NCBI GenBank assembly: GCA_022539475.1
Contig: VCMS01000088.1
Coordinates: 1-64,000 of the forward strand
DNA from: Gracilaria domingensis
Lineage: Eukaryota; Rhodophyta; Florideophyceae; Gracilariales; Gracilariaceae
Direction of reading: 5' to 3'
Length of the DNA stretch: 64,000 bases
The translations under genes and the position numbers were made by a program. The notes under the pieces were generated by a model. It had not been told where the DNA came from. It saw only the letters and a list, made by a program, of their open reading frames with translations, and searched no databases. Positions 4,945 through 44,280 of the stretch are shown here, piece after piece (the first letter of the stretch is position 1; each line of letters begins with the position of its first letter).

Positions 4945-4949
4945 TTATC

Positions 4950-6221
4950 TGTCAGAGTAACATCCTCAGACTTAGGCTCTCACTGTCTGTTGTTGATATC
5001 TGTTTGAACCGGAAGCTGTTGTCTTCGTTGCCATACGAAGGATGAGTAAGAAGTTCAGAGTTGTGACAAAAGGAGGTGTTCCAGAACATCCGAATCGTAC
5101 AGAACAGAACTATGATCTTGGTATACTGGTAGAATGGTACAGCTGTGGACTTGGACACACACTAACTGCACTTGATGTTTGATTGTCACCGTTGCACGTC
5201 GTAAGGTCTAAGTGCAGTAACGTTGGTTTCCTCATTACCCGACTGTTACTTAGCATGTACTGGGCAGCAGCGATAGTTGCTGAAGTCAGTAACAGAGGAG
5301 GGTGTTGGAAGTCATGCTGTCACTGGCATCAAGCAGTTGAGATGTGTGGAGTCTAGAATGGTACCTTGATACGTGAAACCGAGATTGATGTTGTTCTGTT
5401 TGGTATACTACGTTGCTGTGTGGTATACTCAGTATGGGTTGAACGTTTACGGCTACACTGGAACGCTATCGTTCAGCTGGGATGACCACAAGGTACAACG
5501 ATGACAGGTTGTACAGTGGTCATGAAGTACGGGTTGAAGGCTATGTATGTGCACACAAGGTACAGGTGGCAGCACTGTCAGTGTTGTGAAGTTTACACCA
5601 TGTTTGAGTTGTGCTACATGCAAATGTGTGTGTATGGATGAATGGAACATGTTGCAGCTAAGTGACTGACGTCATGTGGTTTACAGGTACTTGTTGATGA
5701 TGTGGGACTTGGGTATCTGGCACGTACACATTACGGTGTGGTGTACAGATTACAGCGTGCCAGCAACACGTGAAGTGTGATGTGATGTTCCGTAAGCATG
5801 GCTGGTCATGATGGTGAGGTGTTGCATTGTGTGTATGCATGGTCGTGTTACTATGGTGGGCTGTCATATTGTTGACTGCGTTGATGTGTGGTGCTCGTGG
5901 TGTGCTGTAGAAATGTGTCGGTACACTGTCAGGGACGTGCATGGCTACTACATTGGTGTGCATTGTTGTGCATTGTTGTTGTAAGCAGTTTGGCACTGTT
6001 ACCATGTTATGTCTGTAGATGATTGGTAGTATTGAGTGTCTCTGGTTAGTGAGTTGCATGTTGGTCAGAGTTGGAGTCGCATAATGGAGTAGCGAAGAAG
6101 TGCTATATAGGTTGTGACTCAAGCACCTCCAAGTAAATATGAGCCAGAGCTGGCGAACTTCCCTTGCATCCCCCCATCCTTCCTCATGTCAACTTTCTGA
6201 TCCCAGCTATAACCTCTAACA
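4950..6221 (+). repeat. E-B 5' LTR (1,272 bp)
   Basis: The LTR begins TGTCAGAG next to TSD TTATC and ends CTCTAACA. It has an internal module (5,281-5,303) that looks like a complete copia 3' junction: TTGAAGTCAG-type pol end, a purine tract and a second LTR start (TGTTGGAAG at 5,303). The last 150 bp match the R-U5 end of the copia LTRs, including the CAGAGCTGGCGAACTTCCC block. It differs from the 3' LTR mainly by a cluster of small indels at about 5,059-5,300; the rest is almost identical. Confidence 0.88.
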
Positions 6222-6237
6222 GGTTATGGGCCCAGCC
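6222..6237 (+). promoter_or_regulatory. Primer binding site for an initiator tRNA-Met half molecule
   Basis: GGTTATGGGCCCAGCC starts directly after the LTR. Its complement reads TGGGCCCATAACC, the anticodon arm of eukaryotic initiator tRNA-Met. Known: Drosophila copia uses the same internal tRNA segment, cut at about nucleotide 39, to prime reverse transcription. The same site follows the E5 LTR (22,342) and, in reverse complement, precedes the A2 and A4 LTRs. Confidence 0.85.
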
Positions 6238-7350
6238 CCGCTGACCTCTGCCGTTGTCGTTCGTCATGAGGTTTCCCTTTCCGCCGCTCTCCCTCACCGC
6301 CGTCCGTGTTGTTGAACGCCGTTGTTGATGTTTTCGATGTTTTTTCTCCGTCGTGTTTCTTGTCATTGACCGGTTTGGTGGTGTTGTATTTCCCTTTTGG
6401 TTTGCGTTCCTCCCTGAGGGCGTTCTGGTGGTAGTGGCTCGACGCTGTTCTACTTTCGTGATTCTGTTTGGTTTCTAGTTCATTTTCGTTTTCGTCGATC
6501 GCTATCCGCTTTGTTGGTTTCTCGCCTCTGTTTTCGTTGTTGTGATCCCCGTGTCGTGTTTGCGGGTTCTGATCCGAGGGGTTGAGTACCGTTGTCGTTG
6601 AAGTCTGTGCACTTGTGTGTTGTGCTCAGCATTCGTTGTTTCGTTGAAGTCCGGGCACTGCCTGTGTGCTCGGCATTTGTGGTGATCACTTGGGTTTCGG
6701 TGCGACGAGCGGTTGATCCGAGCAATCGGGGACGTTAGTCTGGCGGCTTGAACCAATTCGGACGCACTGTCGAGCGGGCTCCCACCGGTCCTTCGGGGCA
6801 GATAACGGTGTCGGTCGGAAGACCTGGTAGTACCGCGAGTGCTGAAGTTGACGGGGTGCCGTGACGTACTGCATCGAACAGGGGTGGTTCACCTTTGTTG
6901 TGTGTGACCTGACTGTGTGTTGGGTTCTTGATCTGTTGGGAAGACAAACTGAAACGAGCTTTTGATCCGTACTGCTGCGGTGGTGCGGGGAGGCGACGTG
7001 TCGTAGGCTGACCTCCTTTTCAGGATCAGGCCGCTTGTGAACTTGATTGTTTGCTTGCTGGAAGCGTACCTCGGTTTGTCATAGTACCTGCAGTATCAGG
7101 GTCGCGCAAGTTCTTGCAAGAGACCAGAGAGGGTTTAACTTGGTGAAGGCATATCTTTGGTCACTAACCATCCTCTGGACGTCTCGTAGAGAGCGACGCG
7201 CTTTCTCCTGGAACGCAGGAGGAGGTAGACAGAAGAAAGTCGTTTCCTACCCGGAGGGTCTCCGGGGGTCAGGGGTCCGACTCCCTAGGGTACCAGGAAT
7301 CTTAGTTCCTTATGCACCCGATCGCTTGCAGTTTGTTGTTGTTATTCTCG
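6238..7350 (+). other. E-B leader shared with autonomous copia copies
   Basis: About 1.1 kb of untranslated leader aligns along its length with the leaders of E5 (22,357-23,450) and of A1, A2 and A4 on the other strand. Homology runs to about 7,350, including the CTAGGGTACCAGGAATC block and a GTT-type run, and then stops where gag would follow. This is the part of the element most likely to hold shared packaging or dimer signals, but that is inference. Confidence 0.8.
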
Positions 7351-7357
7351 CTACAGT

Positions 7358-8452
7358 TCAGGAGGTGGAGTGTTTCCTGCCTGAGACTGTGTGTGTGAGA
7401 TTCGTTTATGACACTTCCTGGGTGTTTATTGTTGAACATGTCTGAGCTCTTCTTTGTATCAACTTTGGAAAGTTGAGATGTTACTTGTCCGTTGTTATCG
7501 TGACTTCCTTACGCAGGCTCAGAAGGTTGTCGTTATGTATGCCCGGGATGTGTGCTGTGCTCTTCGCTTTACTTCTGTTGTACCGGAAGGTTGCTATTTG
7601 TCTGCATGTCCGGTGTGTATGGAAGAGCTGTTTGACTCAGGAGGTTGAGTGTTTCATGCCTGAGTGTATTATTGATCACTTGTGATGTGTGTTTTGCTCT
7701 CCATGTTGTTCTCATGTTACCAGTAGGTTGTTACATGTATGCATGTCCTGGGTATGGAAGAGCTGTTTGACTCAGGAGGTTGAGTGTTTCATGCTGAGTG
7801 TATTATTGATCACTTGTGATGTGTGTTATGCTCTCCATGTTGTCTCATGTTACCAGAGGTTGTTACATGTATGCATGTCCTGGTTATGGAAGAGCTGTTC
7901 GATTCAGGAGGTTGAGTGTTTCATGCCTGAGTGTTTGTTTCATTGCTTGTGATGTTTGTTTTGCTCTTTGTTTCAGTTTGTTGTCACTGGAAGTTTGCTA
8001 TGTGTTTGCATGTCCGGTGTGAATGAAAGAGCTAATTGACTCAGGAGTTGAGTGTTTCATGCCTGAGTGTGTAGGACATCATTTGTATGGACGGGGCCTG
8101 GAAGGTTGTCATTTTGCATGTCCAGGATGCCTGTGTCGCAATTCTCTTTGTGTGTTATTCGCGGAAGGTTGCTGTGATTTTGAATGTCCGCTGTTTGAAG
8201 AGATTTGTTGAGCTGGAAGGTTGCTCTCTTTTGCATGTCCAGCTGTTACGAAGGTGATGTTGAACTGGAAGGTTGCTACTTGTTGCATGTCCGGTGTTCA
8301 GAAAATCGGTCTTGAATCAGAAGGTTGCGTGTGTTTGCATGTCTGGTTGAAGTACTGTGATTAATGGTGCTCCGAGAGGTTGTTATGTGTTACATGCTCG
8401 GAGCAACATTCGTTTTCGGTGTCTAGAATGTGGTCACTTGTGGACATCTAGA
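7358..8452 (+). repeat. Array of about 16 stem-loops with conserved loops
   Basis: Seen by eye: hairpins at 7,358-7,384 (TCAGG/CCTGA), 7,582-7,614 (ACCGG/CCGGT), 7,635-7,665 (ACTCAGG/CCTGAGT), 7,720-7,751 (CCAG/CTGG), 7,770-7,799 (ACTCAG/CTGAGT), 7,852-7,884 (ACCAG/CTGGT), 7,902-7,932 (ATTCAGG/CCTGAGT), 7,985-8,019 (CACTGG/CCGGTG), 8,039-8,068 (ACTCAGG/CCTGAGT), 8,097-8,126 (CCTGG/CCAGG), 8,161-8,191 (GCGG/CCGC), 8,211-8,244 (AGCTGG/CCAGCT), 8,264-8,295 (ACTGG/CCGGT), 8,315-8,348 (AATCAG/CTGGTT), 8,369-8,404 (GCTCCGAG/CTCGGAGC) and 8,422-8,452 (TCTAG/CTAGA). Loops are 16-24 nt; most start AGGTTG and end CATG or CATGT. The first loop reads AGGTGG and the last lacks the motif. Part of the array (7,635-7,932) is also a tandem repeat of about 135 bp. 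Stems change sequence but keep pairing, so selection on RNA (or single-stranded DNA) structure is the simplest reading. The role is unknown. Confidence 0.7.
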
Positions 8453-8507
8453 TCCCTTTTGTGAAGGACTCTGAGGTGCATTTTCGTTCCGAGAGAAGTT
8501 CAAAGCC

Positions 8508-8523
8508 AGTGAGAGAGGGAGGG
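8508..8523 (+). promoter_or_regulatory. E-B polypurine tract
   Basis: GTGAGAGAGGGAGGG sits directly before the 3' LTR start TGTCAGAG. Its context (AAGCCAGTGAGAG) resembles the copia 3' junction AAGTCAGTGACAGAGGG. It is the expected primer for plus-strand synthesis. Confidence 0.75.
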
Positions 8524-9797
8524 TGTCAGAGTAACATCCTCAGACTTAGGCTCTCACTGTCTGTTGTTGATATCTGTTTGAACCGGAAGCTGTTGTCTTC
8601 GTTGCCATACGAAGGATGAGTAAGAAGTTCAGAGTGTGTGACAAAAGGAGGGTGTTTCCAGAACATCCGAATCGTACAGAACAGAACTATGATCTTGGTA
8701 TACTGGTAGAACGGTACAGCTGTGGACTTGGACACACACTAACTGCACTTGATGTTTGTTGTCACCGTTGCATCGTAAGGTTAAGTGCAGTAACGTTGGT
8801 TTCCTCATACCCGACCTGTTACTTAGCATGTACTTGGCCAGCAGCGCTGGTTGCTTGAAGTCAGTAACAGAGGGAGGGTGTTGGAAGTCATGCTGTCACT
8901 GACATCAAGCAGTTGAGATGTGTGGAGTCTAGAATGGTACCTTGATACGTGAAACCGAGATTGATGTTGTTCTGTTTGGTATACTACGTTGCTGTGTGGT
9001 ATACTCAGTATGGGTTGAACGTTTACGGCTACACTGGAACGCTATCGTTCAGCTGGGATGACCACAAGGTACAACGATGACAGGTTGTACAGTGGTCATG
9101 AAGTACGGGTTGAAGGCTATGTATGTGCACACAAGGTACAGGTGGCAGCACTGTCAGTGTTGTGAAGTTTACACCATGTTTGAGTTGTGCTACATGCAAA
9201 TGTGTGTGTATGGATGAATGGAACATGTTGCAGCTAAGTGACTGACGTCATGTGGTTTACAGGTACTTGTTGATGATGTGGGACTTGGGTATCTGGCACG
9301 TACACATTACGGTGTGGTGTACAGATTACAGCGTGCCAGCAACACGTGAAGTGTGATGTGATGTTCCGTAAGCATGGCTGGTCATGATGGTGAGGTGTTG
9401 CATTGTGTGTATGCATGGTCGTGTTACTATGGTGGGCTGTCATATTGTTGACTGCGTTGATGTGTGGTGCTCGTGGTGTGCTGTAGAAATGTGTCGGTAC
9501 ACTGTCAGGGACGTGCATGGCTACTACATTGGTGTGCATTGTTGTGCATTGTTGTTGTAAGCAGTTTGGCACTGTTACCATGTTATGTCTGTAGATGATT
9601 GGTAGTATTGAGTGTCTCTGGTTAGTGAGTTGCATGTTGGTCAGAGTTGGAGTCGCATAATGGAGTAGCGAAGAAGTGCTATATAGGTTGTGACTCAAGC
9701 ACCTCCAAGTAAATATGAGCCAGAGCTGGCGAACTTCCCTTGCATCCCCCCATCCTTCCTCATGTCAACTTTCTGATCCCAGCTATAACCTCTAACA
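8524..9797 (+). repeat. E-B 3' LTR (1,274 bp)
   Basis: This is a direct repeat of 4,950-6,221 with the same ends (TGTCAGAG and CTCTAACA), followed at once by TSD TTATC. It too contains the internal purine tract and second LTR start, here at 8,879. From 8,885 onward I see almost no difference from the 5' LTR. Confidence 0.88.
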
Positions 9798-10352
9798 TTA
9801 TCTCCCTAAGGACCGGTGGGAAACTCGCAAGACGGAACAATGCTTTGGTTCAAGCCGCCAGACTAACGTCCCCGATTGCTCGGATCAACCGCTCGTCGCA
9901 CCGAAACTCAAGTGATCACCACACCTGCCGAGCACACACGCAGTGCACGGACTTCAACAGAAACGAATGCTGAGCACAACACACAAGTGCACAGACTTCA
10001 ACAACACAAGTCCTCAACCTCTCGGATCAGAACCCACAAAGACGACGTGGGATCCCAACAATAATAACAGAGGAGACCAAACGAAGCGGATAGCGATCGA
10101 CAACACGGCAACAACGAGCGCCAAACACAATCACGATAGAAAGTCAACGTCGAACCACCAACAAACGCCCTCAGGAGGAACGAATGACCGAAAGAAAAAG
10201 TCAACACCGACCAACGATACGGTCAACACACCCGACGCAACGGAGAAGGAACGAAAGGGAAAACAGCGAAGCGGATGAACGGCGGTGAGGAGAGCGCGAG
10301 AATCAGCGGCGAGAGGAACGATAACGGCAGAGGTCAGCGGGCTGGCCATAAC
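9798..10352 (-). other. Copia A1 5' leader, distal half, with degraded primer site
   Basis: The leader resumes after E-B and runs to the shared LTR at 10,353. It aligns with 15,840-16,420 but has lost one base at many short homopolymers, for example GGG to GG and CCC to CC. The primer site reads GCTGGCCATAAC where the A2 copy reads GCTGGGCCCATAACC. The pattern suggests uncorrected long-read indels. Confidence 0.8.
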
Positions 10353-21394: not shown

Positions 21395-22341
21395 TGTTGG
21401 AAGTCATGCTGTCACTGACATCAAGCAGCTGAGATGTGTGGAGTCTAGAATGGTACCTTGGTATGTGAAACCGATATTGATGTTGTTCTGTTTGGTATAC
21501 TATGTTTCTGTACGGTATACTCAGTATGGGTTGAACGTTTACGGCTACATTGGAATGCTGTGTTGGATGTTGAACCTGTGCTGTCACTGAAAACCAAAAG
21601 TGCTGGGGAGCATGGGCTGTTTTGGAGGTTGCCGTTGGAAAAGCGCATATGCGCCTCTGCGCAAAGTGAACGTGAAACGGGCTTCTGATTGGCTACTGCA
21701 AATGGTCATATGCATTGTGGTTCGTACAAGTGTTGTCGCGCTAATGGGTTGTGTCCGGGGTACACGTGTGTAGCTAGTACACTGGGCATACTGTACATGA
21801 TGCACAGGGTACACACGTATGTACGTGGACATGTAGCACAGCTTGGTGTATCTTGGGCACTATGGTGAAGAGTTGATGCGGTGTCAAGAGGATTACAGTG
21901 TGGTGTTGTTGGTGACGTAGGACTTGGAGTGAGTTTGTGGTGAAGTGTTGTTGGTGAGCTTGTACGTAACTGTTATGGTGTCGTGTAGGGATTACAGTGT
22001 GTTGGCACTATGTGAATCTGTGCATGGTCATGGTTATGTGTAGGCACGTAACTTGTTGTGCACTGTTGTGCACTGTTGTGCTTTGTTGTTGTAAGCTGCC
22101 ATGATAGTGTGGGAGTGTTACCATGTCATGTTAGAAGATGATTGGTAGTATTGAGTGTCTCTAGCTAGTGGTTTAGGTATTGCTTGGAGTTGGAGTTGTG
22201 CGATGGTTGCGCAAAGTAGTTCTATATAAGCGGTGACTCGAGCACCTCCAAGTAAACTCCGATCCAGAGCTGGCGAACTTCCCTTGCATCCCCCCATCCT
22301 TCCTCATGTCAACTTTCTGATCCCAGCTATAACCTCTAACA
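21395..22341 (+). repeat. E5 5' LTR, composite of E-B-type and copia LTR
   Basis: Bases 21,395-21,560 match the E-B LTR from its internal start TGTTGGAAG (5,303) to about 5,466. At 21,561 a complete copia LTR starts (TGTTGGATG) and runs to CTCTAACA at 22,341. U3 signals include a CCAAT-type box (ATTGG near 21,689), the palindrome GCGCATATGCGC and a TATA box TATATAAG at 22,223-22,230. Transcription should start some 25-30 bases later. Confidence 0.85.
22223..22230 (+). promoter_or_regulatory. TATA box of the E5 5' LTR
   Basis: TATATAAG lies about 110 bases before the LTR end, followed by a block conserved in all LTRs of both families. The same box occurs at the matching place in the other copies. 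It is the likely core promoter for the genomic RNA. Confidence 0.6.
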
Positions 22342-22356
22342 GGTTATGGGCCCAAC
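22342..22356 (+). promoter_or_regulatory. E5 primer binding site (initiator tRNA-Met half)
   Basis: GGTTATGGGCCCAAC follows the LTR without a gap. It pairs with the anticodon arm of initiator tRNA-Met, as in Drosophila copia. Confidence 0.85.
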
Positions 22357-23629
22357 CCCGCTGACCTCTGCCGTTTGTTGTTCGTCTTGAGGTTTCCCTT
22401 TCCGCCGCTCTCCCTCACCGCCGACCGTGTTGTTCAGCCCCGTTGTTGACGTTTTCGATGTTTGCTTGCCGTCGTGTTTCTTGTCGTTGACCGGTTTGGT
22501 GGTGTTGTATTTCCCTTTTGGTTTGCGTTCCTCCTTGAGGGCGTTGTGGTGGTAGTGGTTCGACGTTGTTCTACTTTCGTGATTCGGTTTTGTTTCTTGT
22601 TCATTCTCGTTTTCGTCGATCGCTATCCGCTCTTGTTGGTTTCTCGCCTCTGTTTTCGTTGTTGGGATCCCCGTGTCGTGTTTGCGGGTTCTGATCCGAG
22701 GGGTTGAGTACCGTTGTCGTTGAAGTCTGTGCACTTGTGTGTTGTCCTCAGCATTCGTTTTTTCGTTGAAGTCCGGGCACTGCCTGTTTGCTCGGCATTT
22801 CTGGTGATCACTTGAGTTTCGGTGCGACGAGCGGTTGATCCGAGCAATCGGGGACGTTAGTCTGGCGGCTTGAACCAAAGCGGACGTGCTGTCTAGCGGG
22901 CTCCCACCGGTCCTTCGGGGCGGATAACGGTGTGGGTCGGAAGACCTGGTAGTACCGCGAGTGCTGAAGTTGACGGGGTGCCGTGACGCACTGTTGGACT
23001 TGGGTGGCTCAACTTTGTTGTTGTTGACCTGACTTTGTGTCGGGTTCTTGATCTGTGGTGAAGGCAAACCGAAACGAGCTTTTGATCCGTGCAACCTCGG
23101 TTGAGCGGGGAGGCGACGTACCGAAGGCTGACCTCCTTTTCAGGATCAGGCCGCTTGTGGGCATTATTGTCTGCTCGTTAGGAGCGTACCGTGGTTTGTC
23201 ATAGTAGCTGCAGTTTCAAGGTCGCGCAAGTTCTTGCAAGGGGCCAGATTGGGTTAAGTGGTGAAGACATATCTTTGGTCATTAACCATCCTTTGGACGC
23301 CTCGTAAAGAGCAACGCGCCTTCTCCTGGAACGCAGGAGGAGGTAGACTGCAGAAGTCGTTTCCTACCCGGAGGGTCTCCGGGGGTCAGGGGTTCGATCC
23401 CCTAGGGTACTGGGAATTTAGTTCCTGCCAGTGGTCCCGACTATTGAAGTTTTTTGTTGTTGATGTTGTTTGCCGTTGTTGTTGTTTGCAGTTGTTGTTG
23501 TTTGCTGCTGTTGTTTGCTGCTGTTGTTTACAGCTGTTGTTTGCTGCCGTTGTTTGCTGTCGTTGTTTGCCGTTGCTGTCTACCCGCCACCGCCGTATTT
23601 GATTTGCTCCCCTGTTCCCTTCTGACAAC
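22357..23629 (+). other. E5 leader
   Basis: The untranslated leader of 1.27 kb is shared with A1, A2, A4 and E-B. Near its end is a 7-bp hairpin (CCCGGAG/CTCCGGG, 23,367-23,383) followed by a tRNA T-arm-like GGGGTTCGATCCCC (23,389-23,402) that contains a perfect B-box (GGTTCGATCC). A GTT/GCT trinucleotide run at about 23,453-23,580 lies just before gag. Confidence 0.8.
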
Positions 23630-26600
23630 ATGGATTCGTTCAGTGGGCTCAAGATCGAGAAGTTGGGTGAGGATAACTTCCACACATGGAAGCAGAAGAT
23701 TCAGTACGTACTTGCACTGAAAGACCTCAAGAACCATCTCACCACTTCTGCACCCACCGATGAAGAGGAACTGGCGAAATGGCAAATCCGAGACGAAAGG
23801 GCTAGAGCGATCATTGGACTCACGCTTGCCGACGAGCACTTGGATCACATTCGTGACATTGACACTGCTGCTGACGCATGGAAGGCCATCTGCAATGTGC
23901 TCCAACGCAAGACTCTTCTGAACCGAATCAACGCCAGACCTGCTTTCTACTCTGTCAAGATGCGCGAGGACGAGAAGATGTTGCAATTCATCAATCGTGT
24001 TCGGCACTTGGCCTCCGACCTCAAGAGTATGGACGTCAACGTTGAAGAAGAGGACATTGCCGTGGCCGCTCTATGTGGACTTCCGGATCGTTTTGAGCAC
24101 CTCATTGTTGCAATTGACACCACGATCGGAGATCGCCAACTCACCATGGAGTTTGTGAAGAGCCGTTTGTTGCAAGAAGAGCAACGTATGAGTGATCGTG
24201 CCAAGGAGGAATCTGGTGGTGATGCAGCACTCGTGGGACGCCAGTTTCGTAGGAAGTCATTGAAGTCGGTTGTGTGTTACTATTGTGGCATAAAGGGTCA
24301 TATCCAGAAGAACTGTTTCAAGAAGCAACGTGATGGGGCTAACAAGGATCAGATCGATGCTGCTCACCCAGGTGTACATACCGCGCTCAACGATGAGCAA
24401 GGTACGGGCGGCAGCGATTCTGACTATGTATGTCTCATTGCAAATGGTGCCGACAAGGCCACTAACAGTGACTGGATTGTTGACTCTGGAGCTACCGCGC
24501 ACATGACTTATGATGACTCAATGTTCCAAACGTACGAGACAAAGGTGTCGTCGGGTGTGAGTATCGGCAATGATTCCAAGTTGCAGTCTGTTGGTCACGG
24601 AAGTGTGGAGCTCGATCTGACAGTTGAAGGTTCCAAGCGTAAATGCAAGCTAAAGCAGGTGGTACACGTGCCCAACTTACGGTACCACTTGCTGTCTGTG
24701 TCACAGATTTGTGATCTGGGCTGCACGGTAGTGTTTGACAAAGAAAAGGTATGTGTGTACAAGGGTTCAAAAGTGGTTGCCGTCGGGCGACGCGTCAAAG
24801 ACCTGTACTACCTTTGCACTGCTGCAGAACAGTTCACGGACACGGACAGTGCGCTTGTGTCAGACTTGTCTCTTTGGCATGCTCGAATGGCTCATGTGAA
24901 TGTGGAAGGCATCAAGCAGATGGCTCGAAATGGCGTTGTGTCAGGTCTGAATGTGGATGTGGCTCAGAAGGTGGATGTGTGTGGCTCATGTGTAATGGGC
25001 AAAGCAACCCGTGCTCCGACTCCCGAGCAAGGGGGGGAACGAGCTGAACACGTACTGGACCTGGTACACTCTGATATTTCGGGTCCAGTGAACGTGAAGT
25101 CCTTGGGAGGCTCGCACTACTTTGTCACATTCATCGATGACCACAGCCGTTACTGCTTTCTGTACATGCTCAAGACGAAGGATGAGGTGTTCCGGATGTT
25201 CATCAAGTGGCTCAGGTTTGTGGAGAACCAGATGGGCAGGAAGGTGTTAACCATCACCGCTCGTAAAAGTGTGCTGCGTGCTTTGCGCACAGACAACGGT
25301 GGTGAGTACCTGTCCAATTGATTCTCCGAGAAACTGGAGCAGTACGGTATTGAGCATCAGCGAACTGTGCCTTACAATCCACAGCAGAACGGGCTTGCCG
25401 AGAGGTTCAATCGCACACTCATGGACTTGGTCAGGTCGATGTTGCATCACAAGAATGTGCCAAAAAGCTTTTGGGCTCTGGCTCTAAATGTTTCTGTGTA
25501 TGTGCGCAACAGAGTGACCTGCAAAGCGCTTCCGAGTGACGTGACTCCGTTTGAGCTGTGGCATGGACAGAAGCCTGATCTGAGCAATCTGCGTGTGTTT
25601 GGTAGCCGTTGCTGGTACAAAGTGGTTGATCACAAGTTGAAGAAGCTGGAAGAGCGTGCAGTGGAAGCCATCTTCATTGGGTACACTTCAGGCTCCCACG
25701 GATACAAGTTGTGGGACAGCCAGAAGAAGAAGGTGATTGTGTCACGAGATGTGAGGTTTGACGAGTGCTCTGGAACTGAAAGTGACGAGCACTCTGAACA
25801 CGAGGACTACGCGGATATCGACTTGGTCGACAAGTCGGTATCTGCTGAAGCCCCAACCTCTGACACATCCACCGATGATTCTGAAGATGACCCTTCTGCA
25901 CCAGCTTCTCACGAGAGTACCACGAATGCCAGTACGGATGAACACGCCACACCAGACACACATGATGAGCCGGGAGTGACAGAGACGCAGCCCCTTCGTA
26001 GATCCACACGTCAGAGAAAGACGACATCCTCATGGTGGCGTGGTGCCAGTGCTTTGCTTACTGCCAGTGATGATACTCTTTCGTCGTACGGTGACGCAGT
26101 GTCACGTCCTGATTCCGAAGCTTGGAAGAAGGCGATGAAGAGTGAGTATCAATCGTTGATGGAGCACGACACGTGGGATCTAGTGCCAAGGCCAGCAGAC
26201 AGCAACGTGATTTCGTCCAAGTGGGTGTATGTACAGAAGTATGAGGCTTCGTCATCTGGTGAACCGACAGTGCGTTACAAGGCTCGTGTGGTTGCAAGAG
26301 GTTTCCTGCAGATCGAGGGTGTGGACTTCTCACAGACTTATGCACCTGTGGTGAAGTTCACATCCATCAGAATGATCTTGTCTGTGACTGCCGTACGAGA
26401 CTTTCACTTGCACCAGATGGACGTGAAGACTGCCTTTCTGAACGGTGACCTTGACGAGACAGTGTACATGGAGCAGCCAATGGGGTTCACACAGCAGGGA
26501 AAGGAGGACTTGGTGTGCCGATTGAAGAAAGCAATCTATGGGCTTAGACAAGCACCAAGACAGTGGCACGCCAAGATATACGCCTTCCTTGTTGGTGAAA

Positions 26601-27664
26601 TGCACCTCAAGCCGAATGACGCAGACGAGTGTGTCTACACCGGGATCATACTGGGTTTCTTGGTTATCATTGCTCTGTATGTAGACGACTTGCTGATTGC
26701 GAGTCCGAGCATGAAAACCGTGGAACGTGTGAAGGCAGAGCTGTCAAGTCGTTTCCGCATGAAGGACCTCAAAGAAGCTCGCATGGTTCTTGGATTTGAA
26801 ATCCATCGAGACAGAACCAAGCGAGAGCTGTACTTGACTCAGTCAGCGTACACGAACAAGGTCCTGGAGCGATTTGGCATGCAGCTGTCGAAACCCGTTG
26901 ACCCTCCTATGGAGTGCGGTGTGGACCTGTCTGTTGAGGAGGAAGTGCTCACGCATGTACCGTATCGTCAGGCGATTGGCTGCCTCATGTATCTCTCTGT
27001 GGGAACTCGTCCAGACATCTCATATGCTGTGGCTAAGCTGGCCAAGTATGTTGAGAAGCCGGGAACCACTCACTGGAAGGCGGTCAAGCGTGTTCTTCGC
27101 TACCTCAATGGCACTACCACGTTCGGGTTGACGTATGGCTCCAGCACCGATTTGCAACTGCACGGCTATGTGGACTCTGACTGGGCGGGTGATGTTGCCA
27201 ACCGCAAGTCCACCCCTGGATACTTGTTCATGATGTGCGGTGGTGCTGTGTCATGGTCGTCTCGTCAACAGGAGGTAGTTGCTCTGTCGAGTGCAGAGGC
27301 TGAGTACGTGAGCTTGTGCTCTGGCACCAAGGAGGCGATCTGGCTTAGGCGACTTTGGAACGGCATCGGCAGTGTGATTGGCATGGAAGCAGACGGGTCT
27401 GTGAAGCTGCTGGTTGAACCAACTCCCATGTATGTTGACAACCAAGGCAGCATTGACCTTGCTCGAAATGGATTGGTGAACAGGAGAACCAAACACATTG
27501 ACATTCGGTTCCACTTCACTCGAGAAGCTCTGCAGGCCAAGTCGATTGTACTGTTCTACTGCCCGACGGATTCCATGGTTGCCGACATGCTGAATAAGCC
27601 ACTTGCGCGAGTGAAGCACGAGAGGTTCCGCGAAGCCGGTGGTGTGATCCACATAGAAGTTTGA
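23630..27664 (+). CDS. Copia gag-pol polyprotein (E5), one premature stop
   Basis: This 1,344-residue Ty1/copia polyprotein should be cleaved into capsid, protease, integrase and reverse transcriptase/RNase H in a cytoplasmic virus-like particle. Seen: gag at 1-215; CCHC knuckle C216-C219-H224-C229; protease DSGA at 285-288; integrase catalytic D482, D555, E591 with the DD35E spacing; reverse transcriptase YVDD at 1017-1020; RNase H DSDWAGD from 1182; end HIEV. The start ATG is the only one that matches all family copies and follows the trinucleotide run. Gag and pol are in one frame with no frameshift site, as in Drosophila copia and most plant copia elements. Codon 564 is TGA (25,319-25,321) where the other copies read CGA; it lies between the second catalytic Asp and the Glu of the integrase. 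Apart from that the frame is open. Confidence 0.95.
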
Positions 27665-27674
27665 AGTCAGTGAC

Positions 27675-27684
27675 AGAGGGGGGG
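27675..27684 (+). promoter_or_regulatory. E5 polypurine tract
   Basis: AGAGGGGGGG abuts the 3' LTR start and lies just after the pol stop codon. It should prime plus-strand DNA synthesis. Confidence 0.8.
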
Positions 27685-28484
27685 TGTCGGATGTGGACCC
27701 TGTGCTGTCACTGAAAACCAAAAGTGCTGGAGAGCATGGGCTGTTTTGGAGGGTGCCGTTGGAAAGCGCATATGCGCCTCTGCGCAAAGTGAACATGAAA
27801 CGGGCTTCTGATTGGCTACTGCAAATGGTCATATGCATTGTGGTTGGTACAAGTGTTGTGGCGCTAATGGGTTGTTTCCAGGGTACACGTGTGTAGCTAG
27901 TACACTGGGCATACTGTACATGATGCACAGAGTACACACGTATGTACGTGGACATGGAGGACAGCTTGGTGTATCTTAGGCACTATGGTGAAGAGTTGAT
28001 GCGGTGTCAAGAGGATTACAGTGTGGTGTTGTTAGTGACGTAGGACTTGGAGTGAGTTTGTGGTGAAGTGTTGTTGGTGAGCTTGTACGTAACTGTTATG
28101 GTGTGGTGTAGGGATTACAGTGTGTTGGCACTATGTGAATCTGTGCATGGTCATGGTTATGTGTAGGCACGTAACTTGTTGTGCACTGTTGTGCACTGTT
28201 GTGCACTGTTGTGGAGTGTTGTGCTTTGTTGTTGTAAGCTGCCATGATAGTGTGGGAGTGTTACCATGTTATGTTAGGAGATGATTGGTAGTATTGAGTG
28301 TCTCTAGCTAGTGGTTTAGGTATTGCTTGGAGTTGGAGGTTTGCTATGGTTGCGCAAAGTAGTTCTATATAAGCGGTGACTCGAGCACCTCCAAGTAAAT
28401 TCCGAGCCAGAGCTGGCGAACTTCCCTTGCATCCCCCCATCCTTCCTCATGTCAACTTTCTGATCCCAGCTATAAACTCTAACA
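27685..28484 (+). repeat. E5 3' LTR (800 bp)
   Basis: The LTR starts TGTCGGATG and ends CTCTAACA-like (CTCTAACA at 28,477-28,484), then CTTAC. It lacks the 166-bp prefix present at the 5' LTR. It contains a short GTTGTGCACT repeat (about 28,179-28,212) and the palindrome GCGCATATGCGC at 27,766-27,777. Confidence 0.9.
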
Positions 28485-32941: not shown

Positions 32942-35937
32942 GGCGCTTTTGATTTGGACCGGGTGTTCAACGAATACGCATTCACAGGCGCTTTTGCTCT
33001 TCTGAAAGACTGTCAGATCACACCGCTGTGTTTGAGTTGTTTTTCATCTTGCCGTTTAGCACCGCTTAAGTAGGCGGTGTGCTCCGTTAACTGCTTTTCC
33101 CAGAACCTTCTACTCAATACGATTAGCTTGCAAATATGTACTAAATTTTAGTTCAGTAGCTACGTGTATACTGCTTCTACAAGCGGAAGAGGGTGACCGT
33201 AAACCACTCGCGCGGTATAAATTCTCTAAAAGAAATCATCTCTAAAGCAGGTTAACAACTGCCTTATGTTTTCTCTTTCTGAAAACGACCGTAAAATCTG
33301 AGTCATTGGCTCTTCATTCGAAACGCATTGCAACGAAGGTGCCTTGGGGCAGCAGAACGTCTTGTAAGTACTTGCAAACTAGAAGGAGATTTGAAGGGCG
33401 TCAAGTGTATCCTCGGAGAAAAGAGCTCAAAATGTACTAGTTCGAACACATATGTACTCCCTTTTCCATCCACCGCCTTTAACGATTCTCTACACCCTAC
33501 CTGCATTCAAGTAGATATCCTTTGCGCACCTCTCAAATCGTTACTGAAAGGGTGTTTCCGTTGGTTCATCTATAAAATGTTATCTTGAGTAAAATTCCCA
33601 TCCGTATATGCAGCTGATAATTTCGACGCAGTAAAAGCTTTATCAAAGAAATACCGCGCACTTTACGTCTACATATTCCTGGCTGGATACCAACTACGAT
33701 TTGGCCAACGTGCTCTCATGAAGAAAGCTTTACACTATCATGTATGCTGTGCACTCTTCCTAGTTATGTACAATTCAAAGCCTCAGGCTTGATACATATT
33801 TCTTGCAGAGCGAAAAGAGGAACAATCTACTACCAGTTTCAATTTCAAGTTGAGTCCCTTAAGGCAGACCACTCTTTCCTTCGCTCACCGTTCACAAAGC
33901 AATTTTGTAGCTCGTTGATCAGCATCGGGCTAAACGAAAAGATTGCCAGCACTCAAGCAAACCAGATTCTCTTTCACTTTTTGGACTTTCTTTGCCTTGA
34001 CGAAGAACCATAAGAAGAGCCTATGCATCCTGCTGGTGCAACGCATATCCGATTTGGCTCTCTTGTCGAGGGATAGGTAATAACACTTTCGCCACTTTTA
34101 GCGTGACTTTTTCGAACATGGTCCGTTGCCATAGGTTTTGTTCTAAATACGGACCCACACTTGATGCAGTAGTAACTCTTATTCATTTCCAAAGCGTCTG
34201 GTAATGATTCAAAATATATCACTGGGAACCGCTTTTTCTTCTTATCCGAGTTGTAAACTGTGACGACAGTCGTTTAAGATGATTGTGTCAAAGGTACTGA
34301 GCTGCGTTCGAATACCATTCAAGCCCCACGCTCCCGTAACTCTTTTATACATATAATGATACATTCCACCAAGTCTTGACTTGCTAAAAATCTAACTCTG
34401 GGTAATGTTTTATACCAGAAGTGTATCGAAGGTTCTTCAACCTTTTTCTGTCGATATTTCCCACCGTAGAAAGCAAGGGTTTCTCCCTCTGTCTCTCCTC
34501 AGGTCTGCCCCAGGAACCAAAATGATGGGTTCAAACCAAAATTTTTGAAGAGCATAAGACCGAAATGGAAGGTAACGGGGTCCTCGGGATTACTGTACCT
34601 CTAATTGGACACAATGTGGCCGCCGACATCTGCCTCCAGATTTTAAAACACCTTGCCCTCCATCCTACATATATCTTCTCTTACTTCATGCCTTTCTATT
34701 TTGAACTTTCAGACGATATTCGTTTTCCCAAATAATGCAAAATATTGGTGAACAAGAGTTATCTACTTTCTTTTCACGAGGATGCGTGCCAGTTTTGTCT
34801 GTTTGAAAACAAATACTCAAAAATACAGATTACTGTTTAACACTGGGTCCAATGCGAGAATAAGGGGGTTTTTCTACGTTTTATTTCAAATGTTGTTATT
34901 ATTGATTTGCGATGCGGATACGTTCACTACGCAGCTTCCAGGTTGCACTGAATTATGCGCTCAAAGTCTTTGTTTCCTTTTCAATGCCTTCTCTTACAAT
35001 ATGAATCTCTCCAACTATTGCAAACGTTTACCGAAAATGGTAGCTCACATCATAGTACTGATGAGATTCTTTTCTCACCAATATAAAGTAATATTTCCGT
35101 CACAAGTACGAAGTGAAAGCTTTTCCGATCAAGTTACTAATAGAATGAAAAGATGGTAGAGACAGAGCTAGAAAGCATGCATATCTATCGCAGAACTGAC
35201 TTGGTCCTTTTGAGTCCGGTTTTCTAGATATATGACGATTTCGACAACCTTTCTTATAGCGTCACGGCGCTGCAAAACGTGCAAATGGCTTGCGATCATG
35301 GTATCATTCTACTAAACCTCGCCATCACATTATTCTTCTTTCAGCAACCTCGCCAATGGATTGTTGTACTTTATTTAGTTTATGATCATTCAAACTCTTG
35401 TTTTGGTCGCAACGTTTTTTGAAAATATGTAACTGTAGTGAACCCGAGAAGGAACTTTTGGGTTAATCCTGTACTGCCGGCAGTGAAAATACATGAGACT
35501 TACTAATGCTAAAGCAGAACAAGAAAAGGAAGTGTCTAAAGAGTAAAGCTCTCACAATATTGAAAGTCTTGACACCGGTTTTGTAGATATTTCGTGAATG
35601 TAAACATTGCCCAGCTGGAGCTATACTCATGACCAGTGGTCAATCTTTTCCATAAAGGGATGTGGATTTGTGTCGAGCTGAATAGCTTCACAGCTCTGTT
35701 GACATAAGGCTTGGTAGAATTTCTTCAAAGTAGTGCTGAGATAATTGACTTGGAAAGCTTACAACTGCCATTTTCATTTCAAACCCAAACCGGGGTACAT
35801 GCCAGGAATTTCAAAAATCTCAGTTATAGGTTTAATTTCGGATACAGTCTGCCTTTTGCTCTCGTCCGAGAAGTACATTGAGGCGGTGTGAAAGCATTCA
35901 TTTTCTTGTCTGGTCTCCACGGTCCTCAACGCAAAAT
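32942..35937 (+). repeat. Tandem duplication, unit 1 (2,996 bp)
   Basis: The unit is repeated at 35,938 with a constant offset of 2,996. I count about ten differences over some 2.84 kb. It carries short frames on the plus strand (33,328-33,588; 33,744-34,013; 34,782-35,159) without known motifs and a zinc-finger frame on the minus strand. It is A/T-rich compared with the copia region. The last 150 bases (35,790-35,937) are not present at the end of unit 2. Confidence 0.92.
33974..34252 (-). CDS. Small C2H2 zinc-finger reading frame (unit 1)
   Basis: The frame has a canonical C-x2-C-x12-H-x4-H finger (CIKCGSVFRTKPMATDHVRKSH) preceded by a basic DKKKKR segment and followed by a Ser-rich, basic tail. 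The upstream ATG present in copy 0 is ACG here, so translation would have to start at the internal Met (34,222) or be spliced to an upstream exon. A single finger of this sort could bind DNA or protein; no partner is visible. It is more likely an exon or remnant of a mobile-element gene than an independent gene. Confidence 0.35.
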   Translation of the reverse strand, partial: NSDKKKKRFPVIYFESLPDALEMNKSYYCIKCGSVFRTKPMATDHVRKSHAKSGESVITYPSTREPNRICVAPAGCIGSSYGSSSRQRKSKK

Positions 35938-38785
35938 GGCGCTTTTGATTTGGACCGGGTGTTCAACGAATACGCATTCACAGGCGCTTTTGCCCTTCTG
36001 AAAGACTGTCAGATCACACCGCTTTGTTTGAGTTGTTTTTCATCTTGCCGTTTAGCACCGCTTAAGTAGGCGGTGTGCTCCGTTAACTGCTTTTCCCAGA
36101 ACCTTCTACTCAATACGATTAGCTTGCAAATATGTACTAAATTTTAGTTCAGTAGCTACGTGTATACTGCTTCTACAAGCGGAAGAGGGTGACCGTAAAC
36201 CACTCGCGCGGTATAAATTCTCTAAAAGAAATCATCTCTAAAGCAGGTTAACAACTGCCTTATGTTTTCTCTTTCTGAAAACGACCGTAAAATCTGAGTC
36301 ATTGGCTCTTCATTCGAAACGCATTGCAACGAAGGTGCCTTGGGGCAGCAGAACGTCTTGTAAGTACTTGCAAACTAGAAGGAGATTTGAAGGGCGTCAA
36401 GTGTATCCTCGGAGAAAAGAGCTCAAAATGTACTAGTTCGAACACATATGTACTCCCTTTTCCATCCACCGCCTTTAACGATTCTCTACACCCTACCTGC
36501 ATTCAAGTAGATATCCTTTGCGCACCTCTCAAATCGTTACTGAAAGGGTGTTTCCGTTGGTTCATCTATAAAATGTTATCTTGAGTAAAATTCCCATCCG
36601 TATATGCAGCTGATAATTTCGACGCAGTAAAAGCTTTATCAAAGAAATACCGCGCACTTTACGTCTACATATTCCTGGCTGGATACCAACTACGATTTGG
36701 CCAACGTGCTCTCATGAAGAAAGCTTTACACTATCATGTATGCTGTGCACTCTTCCTAGTTATGTACAATTCAAAGCCTCAGGCTTGATACATATTTCTT
36801 GCAGAGCGAAAAGAGGAACAATCTACTACCAGTTTCAATTTCAAGTTGAGTCCCTTAAGGCAGACCACTCTTTCCTTCGCTCACCGTTCACAAAGCAATT
36901 TTGTGGCTCGTTGATCAGCATCGGGCTAAACGAAAAGATTGCCAGCACTCAAGCAAACCAGATTCTCTTTCACTTTTTGGACTTTCTTTGCCTTGACGAA
37001 GAACCATAAGAAGAGCCTATGCATCCTGCTGGTGCAACGCATATCCGATTTGGCTCTCTTGTCGAGGGATAGGTAATAACACTTTCGCCACTTTTAGCGT
37101 GACTTTTTCGAACATGGTCCGTTGCCATAGGTTTTGTTCTAAATACGGACCCACACTTGATGCAGTAGTAACTCTTATTCATTTCCAAAGCGTCTGGTAA
37201 TGATTCAAAATATATCACTGGGAACCGCTTTTTCTTCTTATCCGAGTTGTAAACTGTGACGACAGTCGTTTAAGATGATTGTGTCAAAGGTACTGAGCTG
37301 CGTTCGAATACCATTCAAGCCCCACGCTCCCGTAACTCTTTTATACATATAATGATACATTCCACCAAGTCTTGACTTGCTAAAAATCTAACTCTGGGTA
37401 ATGTTTTATACCAGAAGTGTATCGAAGGTTCTTCAACCTTTTTCTGTCGATATTTCCCACCGTAGAAAGCAAGGGTTTCTCCCTCTGTCTCTCCTCAGGT
37501 CTGCCCCAGGAACCAAAATGTTGGGTTCAAACCAAAATTTTTGAAGAGCATAAGACCGAAATGGAAGGTAACGGGGTCCTCGGGATTACTGTACCTCTAA
37601 TTGGACACAATGTGGCCGCCGACATCTGCCTCCAGATTTTAAAACACCTTGCCCTCCATCCTACATATATCTTCTCTTACTTCATGCCTTTCTATTTTGA
37701 ACTTTCAGACGATATTCGTTTTCCCAAATAATGCAAAATATTGGTGAACAAGAGTTATCTACTTTCTTTTCACGAGGATGCGTGCCAGTTTTGTCTGTTT
37801 GAAAACAAATACTCAAAAATACAGATTACTGTTTAACACTGGGTCCAATGCGAGAATAAGGGGGTTTTTCTACGTTTTATTTCAAATGTTGTTATTATTG
37901 ATTTGCGATGCGGATACGTTCACTACGCAGCTTCCAGGTTGCACTGAATTATGCGCTCAAAGTCTTTGTTTCCTTTTCAATGCCTTCTCTTACAATATGA
38001 ATCTCTCCAACTATTGCAAACGTTTACCGAAAATGGTAGCTCACATCATAGTACTGATGAGATTCTTTTCTCACCAATATAAAGTAATATTTCCGTCACA
38101 AGTACGAAGTGAAAGCTTTTCCGATCAAGTTACTAATAGAATGAAAAGATGGTAGAGACAGAGCTAGAAAGCATGCATATCTATCGCAGAACTGACTTGG
38201 TCCTTTTGAGTCCGGTTTTCTAGATATATGACGATTTCGACAACCTTTCTTATAGCGTCACGGCGCTGCAAAACGTGCAAATGGCTTGCGATCATGGTAT
38301 CATTCTACTAAACCTCGCCATCACATTATTCTTCTTTCAGCAACCTCGCCAATGGATTGTTGTACTTTATTTAGTTTATGATCATTCAAACTCTTGTTTT
38401 GGTCGCAACGTTTTTTGAAAATATGTAACTGTAGTGAACCCGAGAAGGAACTTTTGGGTTAATCCTGTACTGCCGGCAGTGAAAATACATGAGACTTATT
38501 AATGCTAAAGCAGAACAAGAAAAGGAAGTGTCCAAAGAGTAAAGCTCTCACAATATTGAAAGTCTTGACACCGGTTTTGTAGATATTTCGTGAATGTAAA
38601 CATTGCCCAGCTGGAGCTATACTCATGACCAGTGGTCAATCTTTTCCATAAAGGGATGTGGATTTGTGTCGAGCTGAATAGCTTTACAGCTCTGTTGACA
38701 TAAGGCTTGGTAGAATTTCCTCAAAGTAGTGCTGAGAAAATTGACTTGGAAAGCTTACAACTGCCATTTTCATTTCAAACCCAAA
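35938..38785 (+). repeat. Tandem duplication, unit 2
   Basis: This is the second copy of the unit at 32,942, near-identical up to 38,785, where it joins a reverse transcriptase remnant. The breakpoint shows GGGTACATGC on both sides (35,793 and 38,788 areas), a possible microhomology. Frames at 36,324-36,584, 36,740-37,009, 37,417-37,731 and 37,778-38,155 mirror or extend those of unit 1. Confidence 0.92.
36970..37248 (-). CDS. Small C2H2 zinc-finger reading frame (unit 2)
   Basis: This frame is identical in protein sequence to the one in unit 1, including the intact finger and the ACG in place of the upstream ATG. The duplication preserved it without change, but the units are so young that this says nothing about selection. 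Confidence 0.35.
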   Translation of the reverse strand, partial: NSDKKKKRFPVIYFESLPDALEMNKSYYCIKCGSVFRTKPMATDHVRKSHAKSGESVITYPSTREPNRICVAPAGCIGSSYGSSSRQRKSKK

Positions 38786-39475
38786 TGTGGGTACATGCAT
38801 TCGGCAAGCAGCAAGATTTTATTGTCGATAAACTGTACGTGACGGATCTTTACGTCAGTGACGTAAATCTTCATCTGCTGCGTATCGATGCGCATGGCAA
38901 GGTGGTTCACGATGGTAGAGCCATGCCAGCATCTCTTTGTAGGCTGCTCAACGATGCCGAGTCTTTCGAAGAGGGACTGAGGACCTTCCGTGCCACTGTG
39001 CAATACGCCACTGTATACACTAGCTGACCTGCTTGACTTGGAAGGCGCCAGAAGAAAGTCGTCGATATACAGGAGAACTCGGTAACATAATGAGCATCGA
39101 ATGTAGCGCACCATAACGCACGACATCTTCCTAAACAATAGGGCTGTACGGTTCCATCCGAACAGCACGGCAGAGCAGCCGAAATATCATCCCGCATATC
39201 GGAAGAGAAACTAATCTCGGATGTCTGGGAGGAGGTACATATGGCGAAACCCTCCCTTCACGTCCCAGAACATGAGCACGTCGTTCCGCTTCAGTCCCGG
39301 TACAAAATCTGGCCGTGCTTCGATGCGGACAGTCCCTTTCTTCAAACGCATATTCTGCCAATGGATGTTGACCACAAAGCGCTCCTTCTGTCTCCTTCGC
39401 CTGCCCACGTACTGAAAGCAGATGACATCATGCAACCGCGATCCAAACAAGAATTTGCGTAGAATGGTTCCACTT
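38786..39475 (-). pseudogene. Reverse transcriptase remnant, possibly DIRS-like
   Basis: The pieces, read on the minus strand, are LMFWDVKGGFRHMYLLPDIRD (block with the first catalytic Asp), a broken FGW-type block followed by FRKMSCVMVRYIR, and VLLYIDDFLLAPS (the YxDD active site). The order and the YIDDFL form resemble DIRS/tyrosine-recombinase retroelements, though a Ty3 relative is not excluded. At least three frame changes and several stops break it up. Downstream parts (RNase H, recombinase) are missing, since the fragment ends at the edge of tandem unit 2. Confidence 0.6.
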
Positions 39476-43964: not shown

Positions 43965-44280
43965 TCGAGGCGAGCTTTCGAGCGGAGAAACGCACGTTCT
44001 CTTGTGAGAGATTTGCGGATTCTATGAGAATTTGGCGTGCGTACTTTCGCTCGCAAGCTCGCTTCGGCACAGCACGTCCTATTGTGAGACGTTTGCGGGT
44101 TCTATGAGGCGTTGGCTTGCGTGCCTTCAACCGCAAGCACGCTTCGGCACAGTACTTTCTCTTTTGAGACGTTTGCGTGTTTCATGAGAGGCTGGCATGC
44201 TTGGCTTTGCTTTCAAACTCGCTTCCGTACAGTACGCTCTCTTGTGAGATTTTTGCGGGTTTTATGAGCGTTTCCGGCAA
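43965..44280. repeat. 80-bp minisatellite, about four diverged units
   Basis: Landmarks GCTTCGGCAC at 44,061 and 44,141 and GCTTCCGTAC at 44,221 are exactly 80 bases apart, and the words TTGTGAGA and TTGCGG-TTCTATGAG recur with the same period. An earlier, more diverged unit begins about 43,965. The array overlaps the 3' part of the reading frame at 44,182-44,688. Confidence 0.8.

Follow-up and report, generated by a model that had tools for sequence, protein, structure and literature searches.

Hairpins with a fixed internal loop and covarying stems in a gene-less Copia-type LTR element of Gracilaria domingensis

The 64,000-nucleotide stretch of DNA that we analysed (the window) contains an LTR element, named E-B in the first-pass annotation (4950-9797), in which a row of hairpins lies where a relative begins its genes. 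This raises the question of whether the row is a selected RNA structure, and what it would do for an element without genes, or whether it is a decayed tandem repeat. Our best explanation, to which we assign as a whole a probability of about 0.4, is that, in this non-autonomous Copia-type element, the array is an RNA feature under selection and a multivalent protein platform, with helper Gag as the likeliest single ligand. The parts of this statement differ in strength. We are rather confident that the array is a selected RNA structure, we lean towards a multivalent platform for a putative binding protein, and we name helper Gag as its ligand tentatively.

E-B is a gene-less Copia-type element that carries the hairpin array between its leader and its polypurine tracts (PPTs) (Table 1). 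We found in it the features of a non-autonomous Copia-type LTR retrotransposon, namely two LTRs (98.7% identical) with a target-site duplication, a primer-binding site (PBS) and PPT, no gag-pol, and an autonomous relative. The PBS, GGTTATGGGCCCAGC, is presumably complementary to the anticodon arm of the eukaryotic initiator tRNA-Met, and we take priming to be of the copia kind, with a half-tRNA. The region had been described as coding-free, and indeed no stop-to-stop open reading frame (ORF) of 150 aa occurs within 6222-8523. The longest ATG ORF between 7000 and 8880 has 80 aa, and a coding reading of the array region was rejected because it holds short ORFs only. By copy, the LTRs measure 0.92-1.27 kb and the internal domain between them about 2.3-2.7 kb. 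In the copies that start at the third PPT, the LTR corresponds to 5303-6221 of the window E-B; this suggests that LTR length is set by PPT choice, and the long-LTR window copy has a clean target-site duplication. The LTR of the window copy is about 353 bases longer (4950-5302 and 8524-8878) than that of the third-PPT copies (L042, L050, L065). Near 5979/5980, many other copies apparently have about 42 extra LTR bases, as matches end at query position 1030 and resume about 42 bases on.

Table 1. Features of E-B and of its Copia relative, in window coordinates
Position	Strand	Feature	Basis or remark
4945..4949	.	5' target-site duplication TTATC	identical five bases at 9798-9802
4950..6221	+	5' LTR of window E-B	begins at first PPT
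6222..6236	+	PBS	directly 3' of 5' LTR
6222..7346	+	leader	common to E-B and autonomous-type Copia element
7356..7386	+	hairpin, inner stem GGA:UCC (both sides changed from UGA:UCA)	alignment, covariance model; different fold when alone
7516..7549	+	weak sixteenth hairpin (model match 7517-7548)	E 0.15
7581..7615	+	hairpin ACCGGA/UCCGGU	alignment, covariance model
7635..7665	+	hairpin ACUCAGG/CCUGAGU	alignment, covariance model
7718..7752	+	hairpin, decayed in window copy	alignment, covariance model, folding
7770..7799	+	hairpin in 132-nt tandem unit absent from 38 of 43 aligned arrays	alignment, covariance model
7850..7884	+	hairpin, decayed, in same 132-nt extra tandem unit as 7770	alignment, covariance model, folding
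7902..7932	+	hairpin AUUCAGG/CCUGAGU	alignment, covariance model
7985..8019	+	hairpin CACUGGA/UCCGGUG	alignment, covariance model
8039..8068	+	hairpin with one-base deletion in AGGU	alignment, covariance model
8096..8127	+	hairpin CCUGGA/UCCAGG	alignment, covariance model
8159..8193	+	hairpin GCGGA/UCCGC, inner stem broken in window copy	alignment, covariance model, folding
8211..8244	+	hairpin AGCUGGA/UCCAGCU	alignment, covariance model
8263..8296	+	hairpin ACUGGA/UCCGGU	alignment, covariance model
8315..8348	+	hairpin AAUCAGA/UCUGGUU	alignment, covariance model
8370..8403	+	hairpin CUCCGAG/CUCGGAG, inner stem UGU:ACA	alignment, covariance model
8512..8523	+	first PPT	LTR of window copy starts immediately 3'
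8524..9797	+	3' LTR of window E-B	LTR comparison
8643..8652	+	second PPT-like run	followed by TGT
8867..8878	+	third PPT	5' LTR begins 3' of tract in three other copies checked (L042, L050, L065)
9798..9802	.	3' target-site duplication TTATC	matches 4945..4949
21560..28484	+	autonomous-type Copia relative (likely helper lineage)	LTRs ~21560-22341 and 27684-28484; gag start ~23630

Fifteen hairpins are recognised by a covariance model between 7356 and 8403 on the plus strand, where the first-pass annotation had placed them, and the stems that it listed are present. Within the 64-kb window these units score E values of 8.7e-10 to 5.8e-5, a recovery that follows by construction since the model was built from the same 15 hairpins; no other match below E 1 was found there beyond these units and the sixteenth. 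Thus, of the claimed count of about 16, 15 units stand and the last is weak, and of the claimed extent (7358..8452), hairpins fill the part up to about 8405, the inverted repeat at 8420-8454 being unmatched by the model. Each unit runs, in order, through an outer stem arm (7), AGGU, UGN, an apical loop of 5-9 bases, N'CA, UG and the other outer stem arm (7). AGGU and UG form an internal loop, UGN:N'CA forms an inner stem, and the outer stem and apical loop are variable. The annotation had described a single loop, AGGTTG with CATG, shared by at least 14 of 16 hairpins. By our count it is exact in 11 of 15 units; AGGU and UG are indeed fixed, but as an internal loop next to an inner stem that itself covaries. 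A motif-and-stem scan gave 10 matches with at most one mismatch in the region, where 200 first-order Markov sequences averaged 0.03. Degenerate units at 7415, 7464 and 7516 were left out of the 15-unit alignment (A1), and a repeated AGGTTGTTCACAAACATG sequence was rejected as a further hairpin, as its flanks form no matching outer stem. Rfam gave no match at gathering score in the window and none up to E 5 in 4950-9797.

The support for structure comes from covariation. Pairing is present in 89.9% of 148 cells, compared with 69.4% when partners are shuffled (the observed value is reached by 0 of 500 shuffles) and 21-50% when they are slid. Both sides are changed in 40 cells against 13.8 in shuffles (0 of 500 reach 40), and the weakest of five covariation measures is reached by 13 of 500 shuffles, all of these shuffles ignoring relatedness. 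Such two-sided changes occur at nine of the ten pairs; of the three inner pairs, two are among these nine (UGC:GCA, UGA:UCA, UGU:ACA, GGA:UCC). In a column-pair G-test, six of the ten structural pairs rank among the first 15 of 496, and the remaining ones come at 31, 65, 95 and 229.

Since the 132-nt tandem units seem to have been duplicated recently, we repeated the test on nine single-representative units. Among these, AGGU and UG are 100% identical and the outer arms 44% and 48% identical. Outer positions pair in 59 of 63 cases when both arms come from one unit and in 332 of 504 when they come from different units, and not one arm shuffle in 20,000 attains 59, with the caveat that the nine are not fully independent (7356 and 7635 share the innermost five pairs, and three units share one arm). 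The earlier claim of paired stem changes around a fixed loop is therefore borne out. Upstream, the 18-nt flanks of the nine units share 35% identity, just over the 95th percentile for randomly placed flanks (33%); downstream they share 27%, about the random mean (28%). In addition, G-U cells outnumber A-C cells by 14 to 3 in the full set (21.9 and 14.1 are expected if columns are independent) and by 5 to 0 in the nine units, an excess that points weakly to the sense RNA.

Folding energy adds little to this. Against dinucleotide-shuffled controls, the comparison that the annotation had proposed, the whole region folds modestly better in sense (z -2.17, with 1 of 20 shuffles as good; z -2.59, with 1 of 40), and we rejected whole-region folding as proof of structure for that reason; what supports structure is covariation. 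The antisense values are larger (z -7.03, reached by 0 of 20 shuffles; z -6.21, by 0 of 40), as is the mean unit z (-2.38 antisense, -1.77 sense), which we think arises because G/U-rich sense shuffles also fold well. The drawn shape is the minimum-energy fold in 10 of the 15 window units, and those at 7356, 7718, 7770, 7850 and 8159 fold otherwise alone. In the context of 7100-8880, the mean outer-stem pairing probability is at least 0.95 in 8 of 12 units examined, with lower values at 7635 (0.49), 7902 (0.28), 8159 (0.25) and 7718 (0).

The window also holds the likely helper, a copy in which an in-frame stop splits the gag-pol frame. Among its ORFs are matches to Copia gag, including a CCHC knuckle, to parts of integrase, and to RVT_2; the CCHC match lies in the first ORF, which has 74 protein relatives, the nine with a named organism all being from Chondrus crispus at 35-42% identity and two others standing at 81-83%. 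E-B 5951-7343 is 88% identical overall to helper 22061-23461 (the LTR part alone about 77-82%), the PBS sequence is common to both, and the PPTs are alike (91% over 34 bases). The likeness ends about 170 bases upstream of the helper's gag start, and E-B carries the array there instead. Both the sense orientation and the position right after the leader, where the relative's gag starts, are as the annotation had claimed. In a covariance-model search of the 64-kb window, the helper copies were without the hairpin. The helper was consequently rejected as the hairpin source, the best score outside the array and the weak sixteenth being at most 11.6 bits (E 1.5). To judge from these window copies, Gag has no such site in the helper's own RNA, and we therefore only infer that helper Gag would package E-B.

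In four loci (L059, L060, L066, L067), a helper-type LTR adjoins an E-B leader and array. These chimeric copies are consistent with co-packaging followed by template switching, and are suggestive, no more, of mobilisation of E-B in trans by the helper. Five leader matches without a known array were fetched: L065 proved to be a complete E-B copy, L066 and L067 combine the helper-type LTR with the first part of an array, and in two of the five (L061-L064) the leader is cut off by another element and no array was seen. One locus with an LTR, about 7 kb and an array (L042) was considered as an autonomous array-bearing element and rejected, as its gag-pol apparently comes from a nested Copia element with its own 122-base end repeats.

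An internal loop that stays fixed between interchangeable stems usually marks a protein site. In E-B, such a site would be repeated for avidity, and the transcript would be a multivalent platform in sense RNA. Fifteen sites in a row may serve avidity or dosage, and the varying unit number is what a redundant array would allow. A gene-less RNA would have to win Gag in trans, and many weak sites might let it compete for helper-made particles. The zinc knuckle of helper Gag is of the CCHC kind that binds exposed guanosines. For HIV-1 nucleocapsid, more than two dozen leader sites are described, the first a weakly paired [UUUU]:[GGAG] element (see PMC7395439). Because E-B RNA would need Gag in trans, Gag has a zinc knuckle, and HIV-1 offers a precedent, we rank Gag capture first among specific ligands, with a host protein close behind. 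A broader proposal is that E-B is a retrotransposon satellite whose genes were replaced by a multivalent hairpin array that captures helper particles, which would make the array the equivalent, among retroelements, of the packaging signals dispersed in viral RNAs; we hold this to be unlikely. The array is a candidate determinant of how gene-less LTR elements enter the particles of others. As it is compact, with about fifteen repeats, a short internal loop and swappable stems, compensatory tests would be unusually clean, and the hairpin model can be used on related genomes.

Instead of Gag, the ligand may be an RNA-binding protein of the host, with the array serving the export of the RNA from the nucleus or its stability, or acting as a factor sponge. 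We consider this improbable by itself, and yet the closest competitor. Untranslated E-B RNA would need such help, the same covariation evidence applies, and helper copies without the hairpin in the window fit a need special to gene-less RNA. There are also precedents in CsrB-type sponges and in retroviral transport elements with their repeated internal loops. Against this stands the distribution of the motif in the genome (77.9 Mb, 680 contigs). The patterns AGGTTGC..GCATG, AGGTTGA..TCATG, AGGTTGT..ACATG and AGGTTGG..CCATG occur 268, 215, 102 and 36 times, versus 62, 48, 66 and 217 times for their reversed controls, and we estimate that the excesses are about those expected from some 50 E-B copies. 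At 27 other loci (20 pattern sites and seven earlier ones) we saw no convincing hairpin, the best reaching 17.3 bits and E 0.008 (L083) and the rest E 0.08 or above. The pattern places listed thus gave no host RNA that carries the motif.

A less probable explanation, to which we give a small share, is that the array is a functionless decayed tandem repeat whose matched stems arose from quasi-palindrome correction by template switching. The two tandem periods (132 and 52 nt) and the modest sense folding energy would agree with it. On the other hand, flanks of the nine units are near chance (slightly above it on the 5' side), whereas all nine have the same AGGU and UG, and a stem-copying process would not keep an unpaired internal loop. 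The array query gave at least 41 genome matches (40 of 61 candidates scored). Loci L001-L050 contain 49 stretches of array longer than 500 bases, and the covariance model gave 635 matches in 56 loci at E 0.001. Leaders are 96-100% identical to that of the window in the 40 scored of 307 candidates, older copies having 92-95%; arrays are about 85-99% identical to the window array, and unit number differs between copies. In many copies, the leader (6222-7346) is about 99% identical to the window's and the array (7347-8420) about 90-96%, as if the leader had been separately swept or recombined.

The evidence from these copies is mixed. We aligned 43 arrays (the 49 stretches less three short ones and three duplicates; arrays in L058-L060 and L065-L067 lie outside the alignment) and built trees from 41 of them, leaving out L005 and L006. 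Units 7770, 7850 and 8039 (7754-7889, 8039-8068) were excluded from the tree and split tests. Within the family, diversity is 0.042 in hairpins and 0.047 in spacers. Internal versus terminal changes in the 41-array tree show no difference between hairpins (79/118) and spacers (104/134; p 0.49), nor do they in a second tree (69/117 and 97/142; p 0.48). Changes from the paired state keep or break pairing at ratios of 20:20 and 12:17 on internal branches of the two trees, and of 20:40 and 22:38 on terminal ones, and L001 and L040 differ more in hairpins than in spacers (20/364 versus 10/401). Hence uncompensated stem changes in other copies, which the annotation had named as evidence for decay, do prevail among young copies, where hairpins change about as much as spacers. 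We read this absence of constraint as neutral decay after insertion.

Such a result is expected if most differences postdate insertion, and we therefore compared the deepest split (L031, L034 and L036 against 37 arrays). With the other base tolerated up to a frequency of 10% in the main group, differences lie at 1 of 378 positions in hairpins and at 25 of 464 in spacers (p 3.5e-6), and the single near-fixed hairpin difference lies in an apical loop. Strictly fixed differences number 1 in hairpins and 21 in spacers (p 3.8e-5); at a 30% limit the counts are 10 and 33 (p 0.004), and at the loosest limit, 50%, they are 14/378 and 37/464 (p 0.013). Besides L005 and L006, L035 was left out of this main test. 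Three younger splits show no constraint, with hairpin and spacer differences of 3 and 5, 9 and 5, and 0 and 1, and neither does L035 alone (25/401 versus 32/471). Differences thus avoid hairpins across the deepest split, contrary to what a decayed repeat would show, and the shortage suggests constraint on the hairpins; as this split was selected after the tree was seen, the result is good, not final, evidence.

It is also rather improbable that the hairpins serve reverse transcription, with structure upstream of clustered PPTs setting RNase H cleavage or strand transfer. About 110 nt separate the end of the last hairpin from the first of three PPTs, and Sireviruses have multiple PPTs together with a stem-loop at the terminal PPT, for which inverted repeat Bousios et al. 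propose such a role (see PMC2829016). Nevertheless, 15 hairpins over 1 kb would far exceed what a PPT cue needs, and the helper has its similar PPT while its window copies are without hairpins. Finally, a structure acting in DNA or antisense RNA (a cruciform, a transcription factor site or a small-RNA precursor) would agree with the larger antisense z values given above, yet we regard it as very improbable, since G-U cells outnumber A-C cells, stems of 7 + 3 pairs are short for small-RNA processing, and palindromes of the Sirevirus type keep their stem sequence whereas that of E-B varies.

The preferred reading, a selected array acting as a protein platform, can be set beside known systems. 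The annotation knew of no LTR element with such an array, which has to be narrowed: gene-less LTR elements with conserved RNA structure (LARDs and TRIMs) are already known, as are Sireviruses with palindrome arrays and multiple PPTs, but their design differs. In the parts of the open-access literature that we searched, we found no description of an LTR element with a paralogous hairpin array that keeps its internal loop. LARDs have very long LTRs (about 4 kb), unlike the 0.92-1.27 kb of E-B, and TRIMs are almost without the internal domain that in E-B exceeds 2 kb. Retrozymes carry a hammerhead ribozyme, and E-B has no Rfam match of that kind. CsrB/RsmZ sponge RNAs and roX RNAs have several stem-loops with a short shared motif, but are bacterial regulators or dosage-compensation RNAs and not mobile elements.

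LARDs and TRIMs, like E-B, are LTR elements without genes for which movement in trans is assumed, and are said to specify well-conserved RNA structures; the consulted parts of that source describe no paralogous hairpin array with a fixed internal loop (PMC7215508), and E-B is of Copia type and from a red alga. E-B resembles LARDs in its long non-coding core domain (about 2.3-2.7 kb) and in conserved RNA secondary structure, seen here as covariation and reported for LARDs. Sireviruses are likewise Copia elements with a repeat array and multiple PPTs: the palindromes of their repeated motifs (RMs) number 8-32, their PPTs cluster before the 3' LTR, stems are kept, with a CGG-CCG core in all but one element, and the RMs lie in LTRs or before env (as described in PMC2829016). 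E-B, in contrast, keeps the internal loop and varies the stem (arms 44-48% identical in nine units), and its array lies in an internal domain with no coding genes. In MS2 and STNV, dispersed packaging signals at multiple RNA sites contact the shell in cooperative assembly (see PMC8384211). E-B would share the multiple sites in one RNA, its own being putative; MS2 and STNV are coat-protein viruses.

Elsewhere in the window, a 2.86-kb direct repeat (32942-35802 and 35938-38798, 99.6% identical) lies in a lower-GC stretch, and a tandem repeat at 43992-44268 has 3.5 copies of 80 bases. An ORF at 31207-32394 matches RVT_1 and is possibly part of a non-LTR element.
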